Origin: Methylophilus sp.
Lineage (GTDB): Bacteria > Pseudomonadota > Gammaproteobacteria > Burkholderiales > Methylophilaceae
Assembly: GCF_008015755.1 (NCBI RefSeq)
Contig: NZ_SSGF01000015.1
Coordinates: 1 to 64,000, forward strand
Reading direction: 5' to 3'
Length of the DNA stretch: 64,000 bases
In this document: positions 19,906 to 23,851 of the stretch, one piece after another
Layout of the letters: each line of letters opens with the position of its first letter
Numbering within the stretch: the stretch's first letter is position 1
Notes under the pieces: model-generated
Database searches by the model: none
What the model was told of the DNA's origin: nothing
What the model saw: only the letters and a program-made list of their open reading frames with translations
Made by a program: the position numbers and the translations under genes

Positions 19906-20355
19906 ATGGCCTTATTCAACCCCAGCCGCGATGAAGTCCGCCAATTTTTCTTTGACGCCTGGTCAAAATTTAAGCAACAAAACACACTGACTGACCTTGA
20001 AAAAATGGCGGTGAGCATTATGCATATGCATCCGGAATACCACGCGATTCTGGACAATCCCGAGCACTACCTGGCGCAAGCCTATTACCCGGAAATGGGT
20101 GAAACCAACCCGTTTTTGCACATGAGTTTGCATTTGTCGATCCAGGAGCAAATCAGCATTAATCAGCCGATCGGTATTACCCAAGCCTACGGCAAACTAT
20201 GCACGCGCTTTCAGCAAGAACATGACGCGCAACACGTGTTACTCGAATGCCTGGCCGAAACCATCTGGCTGGCGCAGCGCAACCAGACCGGACTGGATGC
20301 CGCGCATTACCTGAACCTGATCGAGCAGCGCGCCGGCATTGCTCCGTCGGCCTAA
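19906..20355 (+). CDS. DUF1841 family protein
   Basis: The 149-residue soluble protein has no signal peptide. It has the DUF1841 pattern: FNPSRDEVRQFFFDAW at the start, HPEYHAILDNPE (about 44-55), GETNPFLHMSLHLSIQEQ in the middle and a conserved ALIE/CLAETIWLAQ helix near the end. The function of the family is unknown. It follows nth by 2 bases, a linkage common in betaproteobacteria, and precedes the sigma factor by 20 bases. Confidence 0.88.
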   Translation: MALFNPSRDEVRQFFFDAWSKFKQQNTLTDLEKMAVSIMHMHPEYHAILDNPEHYLAQAYYPEMGETNPFLHMSLHLSIQEQISINQPIGITQAYGKLCTRFQQEHDAQHVLLECLAETIWLAQRNQTGLDAAHYLNLIEQRAGIAPSA

Positions 20356-20375
20356 ACTATGCTTCAATAGCCGGC

Positions 20376-20918
20376 ATGACCTCTAACTCGCACGACTGGC
20401 TTAATGAACATGGTGACTATTTATACCGTTTTGCGCTGACACGGCTGCGCGACCCGCATCAGGCGGAGGATGTGGTACAGGAAACCCTGCTGGCGGCGAT
20501 CAAAAATCCTAGCTTTGCACAACAATCCAGTCCGCGCACCTGGTTAACTGGCATCCTTAAGCACAAAATCATTGATTGCATGCGCAAGCAGGTGCGCGAA
20601 ATCCCTGCCTCGACTCTGATGTCTGAGGAAGACGCCAATATGGATGAGTTTTTTGACGACACCGGGCATTGGGCAGAAAAACCGCAAGCGTGGGATGTGC
20701 CGCAAGATGCCTTGCAGCAAAAACAATTTTTGCAGGTCTTACAGCAATGTATGGACCGTTTGCCACAAAAACTGGCTGCTATTTTTTCCATGCGCGACGT
20801 CGATGACATGGACAACGAGGAAATCTGTAAGGCGCTGGAGATTACCGCGACCAATGCTTGGGTGATGTTATATCGGGCCAGAATGGGGCTAAGAAAATGT
20901 CTGGAAATGCATTGGTAA
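20376..20918 (+). CDS. ECF-type RNA polymerase sigma factor
   Basis: The 180-residue product has a sigma region 2 (about 14-75: DYLYRFALTRLRDPHQAEDVVQETLLA) and a region 4 helix-turn-helix (about 120-175: RLPQKLAAIFSMRDVDDMDNEEICKAL, then TATNAWVMLYRARMGLRKCL). The ATG at 20376 is chosen because it begins just before region 2; an upstream in-frame start would overlap the DUF1841 gene. It is followed 16 bases later by a zinc-finger anti-sigma gene and then by the metal-binding-peptide cluster, which is its likely target. The spacing to DUF1841 (20 bases) leaves little room for its own promoter. Confidence 0.92.
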   Translation: MTSNSHDWLNEHGDYLYRFALTRLRDPHQAEDVVQETLLAAIKNPSFAQQSSPRTWLTGILKHKIIDCMRKQVREIPASTLMSEEDANMDEFFDDTGHWAEKPQAWDVPQDALQQKQFLQVLQQCMDRLPQKLAAIFSMRDVDDMDNEEICKALEITATNAWVMLYRARMGLRKCLEMHW

Positions 20919-20934
20919 ATACGGTGGAGTGAAT

Positions 20935-21183
20935 ATGTTGAGTTGCAAACAAGCCAGCCTGCTGGTCTCACAATCACTAGACCGCCGGCTGCGCTGGCGC
21001 GAAAGAATGTCGGTGCGCATGCATCTGTGGATATGCGTCTATTGCCGACGCTTTACACAACAGCTCGCCTTGATTCGTCGCATGATGCACGCCTGGCAAG
21101 ATCAAGCGACAGATCAAAGTGAAGTGGCGTTATCCCAAGCCGCACGCGAGCGAATTGCACAACAACTGGACAAGTTTTACTGA
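20935..21183 (+). CDS. Zinc-finger anti-sigma factor
   Basis: The 82-residue soluble product has a ZAS-type motif, His30-x3-Cys34-x2-Cys37, preceded by Cys4, as in zinc-binding anti-sigma factors of the zf-HC2/ChrR kind. There is no membrane helix, so signal perception would be cytoplasmic, for example through zinc loss or thiol modification. The ATG at 20935 is chosen over a GTG at 20929 because GGTGGAG stands 5 bases before it. It most likely binds and inhibits the sigma factor encoded just upstream. Confidence 0.85.
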   Translation: MLSCKQASLLVSQSLDRRLRWRERMSVRMHLWICVYCRRFTQQLALIRRMMHAWQDQATDQSEVALSQAARERIAQQLDKFY

Positions 21184-21220
21184 TGTCCGACTTTAACCCC
21201 TGTTTTAAAAAGGAATCGAG

Positions 21221-21535
21221 ATGACAACACCTAAAATAGCTGTTATGACTGGCGCAGTTGCGTTATCGATTGCAGCGGCGACGGCCCATGCAGACATTAA
21301 TCCATTTGAGGTTAAAGCATTAAACCAAGGCTACCAGGTAGCCGATGCCACTGATAGCAAAGCCAAAGAGGGCAAATGCAGTAGCGGCAAATGCGGCGCC
21401 GAGAAGAAAAAAATGAAAGAAGGCAGCTGTCATCATGACAAAGCCAAAGAAGGGAGTTGCTCTGCGGACAAGATGAAAGAAGGCAGTTGTTCGGCTGAAA
21501 AAATGAAAGAAGGCGCTTGTCACGCAACTAAATAA
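21221..21535 (+). CDS. hvfA: HvfA-type Cys-repeat precursor peptide (putative copper-binding RiPP)
   Basis: The 104-residue product has a signal peptide (cleavage likely after AHA, about residue 25) and a linker with the family-like NPFEVKALNQGYQV. The core contains six cysteines at 53, 58, 70, 80, 90 and 100. Five are in EG-x-C motifs: EGKC once, EGSC three times and EGAC once. The last four belong to a strict 10-residue unit, KEGSC-x4-(M/A). HvfA peptides in other bacteria carry EGKC repeats whose cysteines are converted to oxazolone-thioamide copper ligands by HvfB and HvfC. This copy has mainly Ser in place of Lys. The ribosome binding site AAGGAATCGAG precedes the ATG. It could also be a plain thiol buffer if it is not modified. 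Confidence 0.88.
   Translation: MTTPKIAVMTGAVALSIAAATAHADINPFEVKALNQGYQVADATDSKAKEGKCSSGKCGAEKKKMKEGSCHHDKAKEGSCSADKMKEGSCSAEKMKEGACHATK
21416..21532 (+). repeat. 30-bp in-frame tandem repeat encoding the core peptide
   Basis: Three full 30-base units (21416-21445, 21446-21475, 21476-21505) and one of 27 bases encode KEGSCHHDKA, KEGSCSADKM, KEGSCSAEKM and KEGACHATK. Units are similar but not identical in DNA, so the repeat is not a recent duplication. Confidence 0.85.
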
Positions 21536-21565
21536 TTCGCAACGTGATTAGCGGCGCGTAAACGC

Positions 21566-22444
21566 ATGGCAGAACTATCAGAGATTCGGGGGGCAGGCCT
21601 GGGACTTAAGCGCGAGCTCCTTCCGCAGCTGATGCAACAACATGGGCAGCCCTTGCTCAGCCAGTTGCAGTTTGTAGAAATTGCGCCCGAAAACTGGATA
21701 GAGGCCGGTGGTAAATATGCCGCCGAGCTAGACTGGTTTGCCCAGCGCTATCCAATCGCATGTCATGGTTTATGCTTGTCACTGGGTGGGCCGGACCCAC
21801 TCAGCGTTAAATTTCTCAAACAGATCAAACAATTTTTAACTGATTTTGAAATCCCGCTTTACACCGAGCATTTAAGCTATTGCACTGATACCAGCAATGG
21901 CTACATTTACGACCTGTTACCTATCCCGTTTACTGAAGAAGCCGTGCAGTATGTGGCGCAACGCATCCGGCAAACACAGGAGATTCTGCAACGCCGGATT
22001 GCCGTAGAAAATACTTCTTTTTATGTGGATTCGCCGATCTCGGAAATGGATGAGATCAGCTTTATCAACGCTGTATTGACTGAAGCCGACTGCGATTTAC
22101 ACCTGGATATCAATAATGTCTATGTGAATAGCGTCAATTTCGGCTTTGATGCGTATGCTTTTCTGGATCAAATCCCCGCGCAGCGCATTGTATATGGGCA
22201 TCTGGCCGGGCATTTACAGGTAGCGCCCGACTTACTGGTGGATACGCATGGCGAAGCGATTATTGAGCCGGTGTGGCATCTGCTCAAATACGCCTATAAC
22301 AAGCTTGGCGTGTTTCCAACCCTACTGGAACGCGATAGCCATATTCCCCCCTTGCCTGTGCTAATGACCGAGGTCAACCGTATCGCTGCACTGCAACAGC
22401 CGACACGTCCTAGCCATACGCACCCCTTGCAGCAAGTCGCCTGA
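21566..22444 (+). CDS. hvfB: MNIO (DUF692) family multinuclear iron oxidase, HvfB-like
   Basis: The 292-residue product is a TIM-barrel DUF692/MNIO protein. Candidate iron ligands are spread as in MbnB and its relatives: His67 (ACHGLCLSLGG), His102 (TEHLSYC), Glu148 (VENTSF), Asp181/Asn183 (LHLDINNVYVN), His212 (VYGHLAGH), Asp226/His228 (DTHGE) and Glu255 (LERDSHIPPL). In the family these bind two or three irons and use oxygen to convert cysteines of a peptide substrate to oxazolone/thioamide or related groups. The substrate is probably the peptide encoded 30 bases upstream. It overlaps the next gene by one base (TGATG). Confidence 0.93.
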   Translation: MAELSEIRGAGLGLKRELLPQLMQQHGQPLLSQLQFVEIAPENWIEAGGKYAAELDWFAQRYPIACHGLCLSLGGPDPLSVKFLKQIKQFLTDFEIPLYTEHLSYCTDTSNGYIYDLLPIPFTEEAVQYVAQRIRQTQEILQRRIAVENTSFYVDSPISEMDEISFINAVLTEADCDLHLDINNVYVNSVNFGFDAYAFLDQIPAQRIVYGHLAGHLQVAPDLLVDTHGEAIIEPVWHLLKYAYNKLGVFPTLLERDSHIPPLPVLMTEVNRIAALQQPTRPSHTHPLQQVA

Positions 22445-23205
22445 TGAAAGCGTTTCAAGCCTACCAAACAGCCTTTACCACGCACTTGCGACAGCCTGCC
22501 CTGCATGCCAAACCAGCGGGATTGAGCGATAAACGCATGCGGATTTATCGTGAAATCGTCTTTAATCATTTTTTAGCCAGTATTCGCGCCTGCTTTCCGG
22601 TACTGCACGAGATTCTCGGCAAACGGCGCTTTAGCACACTGGTGCGTCAATGTTTCTACTCACAGCACTTTAACAGCCCCTTGTTTAGAGATATTCCCGG
22701 CAGTTTCGTGACCTTTTTACAAACACAAACAGTGGCCGACCTGCCAGCCTACACCGCGCAACTTGCGCATTACGAATGGATAGAGCTGCACCTTAGCCAG
22801 CAACTTGAGACCACATCGGCGGCGTTCTCCAGCGTGCCAGAGACTAGCGAGAAGGCATTGCTGCAGCGCGTTGTGAGGCTATGCGAGGTGCACCGATTAT
22901 TGCATTACGACTATGCAGTGCATCAGCTATCTAAAAAACACAAAACGGCTGCCCCCATCGCCACCTTTTTATTGGTCTATCGCACGCCAGCATTCAAGGT
23001 GTGCTTTATCCAGTTAAATGCAATCACTTATCAACTCTTGCAACAACTGCACACACAAACCGCGACCGCACATCAGCACCTGCTGCAGTTAGCGCAGTCG
23101 ATGCCGCATTTGCCGGTTGAGACTGTCATCCAATTTGGCCTGCAAACGTTATATACGCTTTATCAGCAACTGGCCATCACAGCCGATGGACAGTTGGCAA
23201 AATAA
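22444..23205 (+). CDS. hvfC: DUF2063-like partner protein of the MNIO enzyme (HvfC-like)
   Basis: The 253-residue soluble product has the DUF2063 N-terminal helical domain (FQAYQTAFTTHLR, KRMRIYREIVFNHFLASIRACFPVLHEILG, about 1-60), often labelled 'putative DNA-binding'. The C-terminal half is less conserved (VYRTPAFKVCFIQLN about 180-194). In MNIO systems such partners (HvfC, MbnC, BufC) form a complex with the enzyme and present the leader of the peptide substrate. Translation is coupled to hvfB through the overlapping TGATG. It is the last gene of the run; no clear terminator follows, only a 12-bp palindrome at 23219-23230. Confidence 0.85.
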   Translation: MKAFQAYQTAFTTHLRQPALHAKPAGLSDKRMRIYREIVFNHFLASIRACFPVLHEILGKRRFSTLVRQCFYSQHFNSPLFRDIPGSFVTFLQTQTVADLPAYTAQLAHYEWIELHLSQQLETTSAAFSSVPETSEKALLQRVVRLCEVHRLLHYDYAVHQLSKKHKTAAPIATFLLVYRTPAFKVCFIQLNAITYQLLQQLHTQTATAHQHLLQLAQSMPHLPVETVIQFGLQTLYTLYQQLAITADGQLAK

Positions 23206-23383: not shown

Positions 23384-23851
23384 ATGCAAAACTCACTCGC
23401 CAAAGACGCTTTAAAACAATTTCGAATTATTTTCGGTACAGTCAGACAACATTTTAGAGAAATTGAAGCGTCCTGCGGCATCTCCGGTTCACAACTGTGG
23501 CTGTTACATGAAATCGCCAGCCATCCTGAACTCGGCGTCTCACGTTTGGCAGAAAACTTGGCCATCCACCAATCCACCTGTAGCCTGCTCGTTGAAAAAC
23601 TGGTTAAAAAACAGCTGGTCGAAAAACAGCGCCTGAGCCAAGACCAACGCAAGGTCGGGCTGATTGTCACCGAAAAAGGGCATGCCGTGCTGGCCAAAGC
23701 GCCTGAGCCCGTTGATGGAATTTTGCCGCAAGTCTTGGCCACGCTAGATGCAGAGGCTCTCGAAACGCTGAATATCTCCCTCAAAATGGTGATCGGTAAA
23801 CTCGATGCACAAGCAAACGCGCTGTCCAATCAGCCACTGGCTGACATGTAA
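23384..23851 (+). CDS. MarR-family transcriptional regulator
   Basis: The 155-residue product has the MarR winged helix-turn-helix: GISGSQLWLLHEIASHP (about 31-47), LGVSRLAENLAIHQSTCSLLVEKLVKKQLVEKQ (recognition helix about 61-78) and the wing QDQRKVGLIVTEKG (about 86-99). Two cysteines (Cys30 and Cys65) could make it redox- or metal-responsive, which is speculation. It is monocistronic, with an AT-rich 178-base upstream region and a bidirectional terminator behind it. Its position after the hvf cluster may be chance. Confidence 0.9.
   Translation: MQNSLAKDALKQFRIIFGTVRQHFREIEASCGISGSQLWLLHEIASHPELGVSRLAENLAIHQSTCSLLVEKLVKKQLVEKQRLSQDQRKVGLIVTEKGHAVLAKAPEPVDGILPQVLATLDAEALETLNISLKMVIGKLDAQANALSNQPLADM

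Follow-up and report, generated by a model that had tools for sequence, protein, structure and literature searches.

A probable peptide-metallophore cluster of Methylophilus with a variant enzyme site and cysteine motif, and its linkage to DUF1841

What does a run of five genes in the methanol-using Methylophilus sp. make, how do its enzyme and its substrate fit together, and what switches it on? The run lies at 20376-23205 on the forward strand of a 64,000-nucleotide stretch (contig NZ_SSGF01000015.1, positions 1 to 64,000; hereafter the window). A sequence-only reading had described it as an HvfABC-type metal-peptide cluster, made of a sigma/anti-sigma pair, a precursor with a signal peptide, an MNIO (DUF692) enzyme and a DUF2063-like partner. 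Searches for open reading frames (ORFs) and families bear out every gene at the positions and strand given, and the claimed coupled stop/start is there, base 22444 being common to the MNIO stop and the partner start. We consider it fairly probable that Methylophilus has here a peptide-metallophore cluster of the MNIO-PME1 (captophorin/oxazolin) type, whose working we reconstruct below and whose enzyme and cysteine motif are variants. Clusters of this type are already known; what is new is the comparison of motif, enzyme residue, DUF1841 linkage and sigma losses, and the earlier reading had missed the motif/enzyme shift and the linkage of DUF1841 to the cluster.

The enzyme scores above the cut-off of the HvfB-family model NF003818 and the partner above those of NF050145, PF09836 and PF22106, which places it among PME1 partners; the partner also has a weak phmmer match to 3DEE (E 0.00096). 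MNIO matches at E <= 1e-40 occur in 113 of 187 Methylophilaceae genomes, a count that includes a second, more distant MNIO type. From the 113 we fetched 60 HvfB-type loci; the family counts used here cover 61 loci. The order DUF1841-ECF-ZAS-precursor-MNIO-DUF2063 (extracytoplasmic-function sigma factor, ECF; zinc-finger anti-sigma, ZAS) recurs in the 60 fetched loci, losses and insertions aside, so that the comparison proposed earlier shows the arrangement to be more than chance. Three Methylophilus sp. genomes have MNIOs with 85, 84 and 82% identity to that of the window. As had been read from the sequence, the candidate iron-ligand set is complete: none of its positions, the Asp-x-His pair 226/228 among them, varies across the 61/61 family enzymes. 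N175, D242 and H244 of HvfB are reported to be required, in a study that uses the revised product structure (PMC13419390), and D242 and H244 would correspond to window D226 and H228 by our own mapping on a 3BWW alignment. The second MNIO locus of this genome (L001, G000:C20:21504-25289) has a small CK-containing precursor, a DoxX-like gene, and a 547-aa protein that reads as a fusion of an MNIO with a DUF2063-like part. In nine further genomes of the genus the corresponding match falls in a frame of 548-583 aa, the L001 copy being the one that was read.

The precursor departs from the known pattern. By a crude hydrophobicity measure its N-terminus is hydrophobic and ends AHA/D, so that a cysteine-rich precursor with an apparent Sec signal peptide stands beside the enzyme. 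The leader motif NPF..L..GY is present in 61/61 family precursors, and the six cysteines (residues 53, 58, 70, 80, 90 and 100) all follow the signal region. The peptide has six repeat cysteines and is not a standard EGKCG peptide. In fact, 0/6 cysteines stand in an exact EGKCG; Lys before Cys is kept solely at EGKCS and SGKCG, the two leader-proximal sites, and EG[SA]C[SH] decapeptides hold 4/6 of the cysteines. The HvfA model gives 29.3 bits (cut-off 95) and a domain model of the HvfA/Buf_EGKCG family 13.5 (cut-off 19.5), while a Pfam decapeptide model matches below threshold (21.4 bits, cut-off 45) because the last four cysteines stand ten residues apart. The HvfABC label therefore holds for enzyme and partner, which pass the HvfB and HvfC cut-offs, and not for the precursor, which we file not as HvfA but as a peptide that would work like HvfA.

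Which enzyme, then, faces these cysteines? A model of FonB has Arg15, Arg16 and Phe250 touching the substrate, Phe250 directly after the proposed catalytic base Asp249 (PMC12668002). Since 3BWW reads ERDF and the second MNIO of this genome reads EWDD, we place the Phe250 equivalent directly behind the Asp of E-R-D, which would make it window Ser258; the EWDD-type reading in the MNIO group with CK-containing precursors agrees with a published report on that group. We compared the 61 family loci with 105 loci outside the family (8 and 97 from two search sets), leaving out L125 and L130, which are the same places as L223 and L222, and keeping L039 with L163 (same precursor) and L041 with L043 (much the same precursor). 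Only motifs of the form [EDQS][GAS]xC were counted, and the 18/105 outside loci in which no repeat precursor was detected were excluded from these counts. Outside the family, the Phe250 equivalent is Phe in 94/105 loci and residue 15 is Arg in 102/105. Within it, residue 258 is Ser in 26 loci, Asn in 15, Thr in 13, Ile in 4, Leu in 2 and Val in 1, never Phe, and residue 15 is Lys in 61/61. The residue after the cysteine (Cys+1) moves with this difference. Beside the 78 Phe enzymes it is Gly 487 times, Ala 12 times and Arg once (500 motifs), the single Arg belonging to a non-repeat motif, SSLCR (L209). The 61 family loci have Ser 133, Gly 124, His 29, Ala 6, Asn 5, Lys 2 and Gln 1, so that 170/300 are Ser, His, Asn, Lys or Gln, and the nine other non-Phe loci have Gly 31, Ala 10, Ser 4, Met 1 and Val 1 (47 motifs). 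Repeat cysteines followed by anything other than Gly or Ala are thus confined to loci without Phe.

A raw Fisher test (1/78 Phe loci against 48/70 others) gives p 1.5e-20, which we do not use as a measure of strength because 61 of the 70 form one clade. On a quick tree, built without the enzyme columns at issue, Phe is lost six times and 13 changes of the Cys+1 state are inferred. All 13/13 lie on branches without Phe, whose share of the tree length is 41%; placing changes at random by length would give this with probability 9e-6. With Phe gone from the enzyme and the substrate drifted from EGKCG to EG[SA]C[SH], a contrast with most of the other Pseudomonadota compared, the window enzyme probably accepts polar residues after the cysteine.

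The sigma/anti-sigma pair opens the run. The sigma factor passes TIGR02943, with regions 2 and 4 present, and the anti-sigma carries the ZAS signature, His-x3-Cys-x2-Cys with an upstream Cys (Cys4, His30, Cys34 and Cys37, counted from ATG 20935; a GTG start further 5', at 20929, is possible too). Across 57 rows these ligands are kept in 56, 57, 57 and 56, respectively. They are exact counterparts of those in MseR, for which Cys34 is reported as essential and Cys4 and Cys37 as important. The zinc/thiol sensing proposed earlier is speculative, and for meningococcal MseR the transcript levels are reported as unchanged after peroxide, diamide or singlet oxygen (PMC2893595). Outside the family, in loci read with 1.5-kb flanks, ECF and ZAS stand directly before the precursor in 17/28 order-level loci (L126-L154 without L130); of 20 others (L184-L203), two show the same arrangement, and in seven, six of which belong to group f44, sigma and anti-sigma follow the partner. 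A TGCTTCAAT-type pattern, scanned as TGNTTSART, lies at -14 to -16 in 23/58 sigma-bearing family loci, including all 18 of the same genus, and persists where other genes separate DUF1841 from sigma; we see in it either a possible extended -10 for leaderless transcription or a possible tiny ORF. A three-codon ORF, ATG CTT CAA TAG (20363-20374), lies directly 5' of the sigma ATG, and similar short frames precede sigma elsewhere. A search for a regulon by motif (TGMTTSAATN7ATG) gave 4 hits in the genome and 0 for a reversed control, where our own chance estimate is about 1.3; we claim none because at the three hits away from the sigma gene no ORF of at least 50 aa starts at the ATG. Dyads shared by as many as 7, 5 and 4 genera precede DUF1841, sigma and precursor, respectively, where one shuffle gave 2-3; these too were not taken as promoters, and for DUF1841 and sigma we attribute them to conserved coding sequence.

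How would such a cluster work? The precursor leader would be held by the RRE domain of the partner, and the di-iron enzyme, lacking Phe beside the proposed catalytic Asp, would with the partner oxidise the cysteines of a substrate drifted from EGKCG to EG[SA]C[SH] decapeptides into 5-thiooxazoles before Sec export. The exported peptide would then bind and buffer Cu(I) in the periplasm, with the sigma/anti-sigma pair as a stress switch, as in Neisseria. The oxazolone-thioamide chemistry assumed earlier is outdated: oxazolin has been revised to a 5-thiooxazole peptide, formed with loss of 4 H, or -4 Da per Cys (PMC12668002; PMC13419390), so that the "+O2/-H" mass shift suggested as a check is the wrong target. 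Copper buffering is the likeliest role of the cluster, and the metal-buffer reading the best one, by analogy with characterised relatives.

The nearest of these relatives are found in Neisseria, where NMB2140-NMB2145 is reported as one autoregulated operon of a DoxX-like gene, three then-unknown proteins, an ECF sigma and MseR (PMC2893595), and where the gonococcal cluster (NGO1948-NGO1943) is described as MNIO-PME1, its product a 5-thiooxazole peptide, gonophorin, with reported Cu binding (PMC12668002). Both systems link an ECF sigma, a ZAS anti-sigma, an MNIO and a DUF2063 partner. In Neisseria, however, the precursor is of EGKCG type, the sigma/anti-sigma pair comes last and a DoxX-like gene is present, whereas the window has an EG[SA]C[SH]-rich precursor, other residues at 15 and 258, the pair first and no DoxX gene in the run. 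The gene order and promoter-like motif of the f44 loci appear to resemble Neisseria. HvfABC/oxazolin of Haemophilus influenzae and fontiphorin (fonABC) share with the window the HvfB and HvfC families, over cut-off, and a repeat precursor with signal peptide; unlike them, the window has no exact EGKCG, fails the HvfA model, carries Ser258 and Lys15 for Phe and Arg, and adds a sigma/anti-sigma pair. In Caulobacter (sigF-nrsF and bufferin 1), an ECF sigma is reported to control DUF692/DUF2063 genes under heavy-metal stress (PMC3511200), but there the precursor is DUF2282 and the anti-sigma a membrane protein (DUF1109), where the window has EGxC repeats and a soluble ZAS protein. More widely, about 2,000 EGKCG precursors are reported, with precursor, MNIO, DUF2063 and DoxX as core genes, and sigma and NrsF genes are named for the Buf1 group (PMC12452194). 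A literature search for Methylophilaceae with MNIO found no paper, and a PHROGs library search gave nothing useful.

Several findings count against this account, at the enzyme as well as in its control, and the product is predicted from the genes. Relaxed precursors appear in just three of the six clades that lost Phe, and an independent-pairs test that left out SSLCR gave 4 supported pairs, on average 1.3 the same way and 0 opposite, which is not significant. Residue 15 also changed in the clade that holds 61 of the 70 Phe-less rows. The link between enzyme residue and Cys+1 could therefore mostly reflect shared ancestry of one family, not functional coupling; we give this an appreciable minority chance, set against the lone non-repeat exception beside 78 Phe enzymes and the changes confined to Phe-less branches, repeated ones within the family included. 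Ser258 as sole cause is rejected: 14/26 family Ser loci have Gly after every counted Cys, so Ser alone does not force the motif change, and pure EGKCG beside Ser258 fits an order of enzyme first, substrate later. On its own repeat FonBC tolerated only Ala in place of Gly after Cys and processed no variants with any other residue there, while a natural motif with Tyr after Cys was modified once, so that Phe250 alone need not decide; F250D, which gave a broader choice before Cys, was assayed at position 3 and not at Cys+1 (PMC12668002). Alternatively, only the leader-proximal cysteines, in EGKCS and SGKCG, would be modified, and the four EG[SA]C[SH] cysteines would stay free in what is mainly a metallothionein-like thiol/imidazole binder. 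Lys before Cys, kept at just those two sites, speaks for such a division, as does the reported rejection by FonBC of most Cys+1 residues besides Gly and Ala (PMC12668002). We think it rather unlikely, however: E-G before each Cys is preserved across an exact ten-residue repeat, and relaxed Cys+1 residues are confined to loci with Phe-less enzymes, a sign that the enzyme does meet these cysteines.

The control of the cluster is questioned by the loci themselves. Three loci (L061, L099, L101) have no sigma gene and four (L068, L076, L091, L106) a broken one; draft assemblies may hold errors, but several fragments and stops are seen. All seven, out of 61 family loci, retain MNIO and precursor; a search of L106 gave no anti-sigma, and in L076 and L091 the anti-sigma is short of one ligand residue. 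Conversely, a same-genus genome, G075 (L111, L124, G075:C12), has a 76% identical sigma with the anti-sigma next to it and no HvfB-type MNIO. The gene after that anti-sigma reads by eye as secA-like. No promoter of the scanned ECF types precedes the cluster genes, save one GGAAC-type hit before the precursor in L101. A loosened Neisseria consensus (GTMAGBWTT-N12/13-CGTCTAAH) gave 0 hits over the 150 bases preceding DUF1841 in 60 loci, sigma in 58 and the precursor in 61, where other promoter sequences are possible; L188 and L189, both of group f44, do match it 5' of the cluster, and one further match lies in L164. The Caulobacter consensus GTAACC-N16-CGAA was not among the patterns scanned. 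The earlier proposal that the sigma factor turns on the peptide genes finds no support in these results and, since no promoter of the scanned types was found, is argued from analogy. One may even suppose that the pair is a separate stress regulator that merely adjoins peptide genes using other promoters, as the losses, G075 and the empty scans would suggest; yet the adjacency in the other family loci and in the 17/28 order-level loci, and the autoregulation reported for the homologous Neisseria operon (PMC2893595), make this unlikely. We retain the pair as a likely stress switch for the cluster, by that analogy.

Does the cluster extend further upstream? A class-level draw of 369 genomes has HvfB-type MNIO over cut-off in 117 and DUF1841 in 218; the linkage count rests on 150 listed of the 218, with 51 genomes on both lists. 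Among the matches listed, 33/51 have DUF1841 and MNIO on one contig and 27/51, from 16 families and with the window genome included, have a same-strand DUF1841 within 3 kb upstream of the MNIO; linked loci across the class include L155-L183, L206 and L219. The gap to the MNIO is 580-817 bases in 19/27 linked genomes, room for one precursor gene, and DUF1841 runs up to or into the start of sigma in many loci of group g18. Among 16 DUF1841 copies from outside the family, H42, E44, H72, H76, H110 and C115 are kept in 16/16 and E81, H106 and E118 in 15/16, a possible metal site. It is also possible that the linkage is an old nth-DUF1841 neighbourhood kept for other reasons; a full-text literature search for the name DUF1841 found no paper. 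Read-through from upstream, suggested earlier, is possible in the window, where 20 bp separate DUF1841 from sigma, but it cannot be the rule, as six other loci of the genus have 836-1503 bp at this place. Four of these large gaps were read, and contain an opposite-strand gene in three (L053, L054, L055) and a same-strand gene in one (L058), which we take to be genes for an AI-2E-type membrane protein and a MOSC-domain protein. Between Nth and DUF1841, seven loci (L062, L064, L069, L070, L075, L078, L096) have a gene of about 354-400 aa, presumably for a FIST-domain protein. On the other side, a MarR-type regulator gene (23384-23851, same strand) lies 3' of the cluster, as in same-genus loci L050-L061, and could be another regulator of it.

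Table 1. Features of the cluster region in the window
Feature	Position	Strand	Evidence
DUF1841 gene	19906..20355	+	PF08897 189.4 bits; conserved upstream neighbour, candidate extra cluster member
TGCTTCAAT plus seven bases	20360..20375	+	abuts sigma ATG; possible extended -10 of leaderless transcript, or tiny ORF
ECF sigma factor	20376..20918	+	TIGR02943 208.1 bits (cut-off 162.2); Sigma70_r2 and r4
ZAS (zinc-finger) anti-sigma	20935..21183	+	NF052368 74.8 bits (cut-off 50); zf-HC2 31.9 (cut-off 22.2)
Precursor peptide gene, 104 aa	21221..21535	+	position, signal region, leader motif; below HvfA cut-off
Putative signal peptide, residues 1-24	21221..21292	+	hydrophobic stretch, A-x-A before D25 (crude hydrophobicity measure)
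Core repeats	21368..21523	+	EGKCS, SGKCG, then EGSCH, EGSCS, EGSCS, EGACH at ten-residue spacing
MNIO enzyme (HvfB-type)	21566..22444	+	NF003818 388.8 bits (cut-off 360); PF05114 336.2 bits
Lys15 codon (FonB Arg15)	21608..21610	+	Lys in 61/61 family loci; Arg in 102/105 others
Ser258 codon (mapped to FonB Phe250)	22337..22339	+	Phe in 0/61 family loci; 94/105 others
Partner, DUF2063 and RRE-type domain (HvfC-type)	22444..23205	+	NF050145 214.6 bits (cut-off 142)

A bolder history can be drawn from these comparisons, which we offer as doubtful: an ancestral loss of the gatekeeper Phe in Methylophilaceae would have left a permissive enzyme and let the motif change from EGKCG to EG[SA]C[SH], so that His or Ser beside a thiooxazole would make a new metallophore with mixed S/N ligands and another metal preference, with DUF1841 as a further, unrecognised cluster member across the class. 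How MNIO enzymes choose their cysteines is an open question in a family reported to have tens of thousands of clusters (PMC12668002). DUF1841 is now a concrete candidate for another cluster component, and the natural losses of sigma with the peptide genes kept, together with the one reverse case, make the question of control testable. Finally, the Methylophilaceae form a natural series for the choice of cysteines, with S, T, N, I, L or V at the enzyme site and precursors ranging between pure EGKCG and mostly EGSC[SH].

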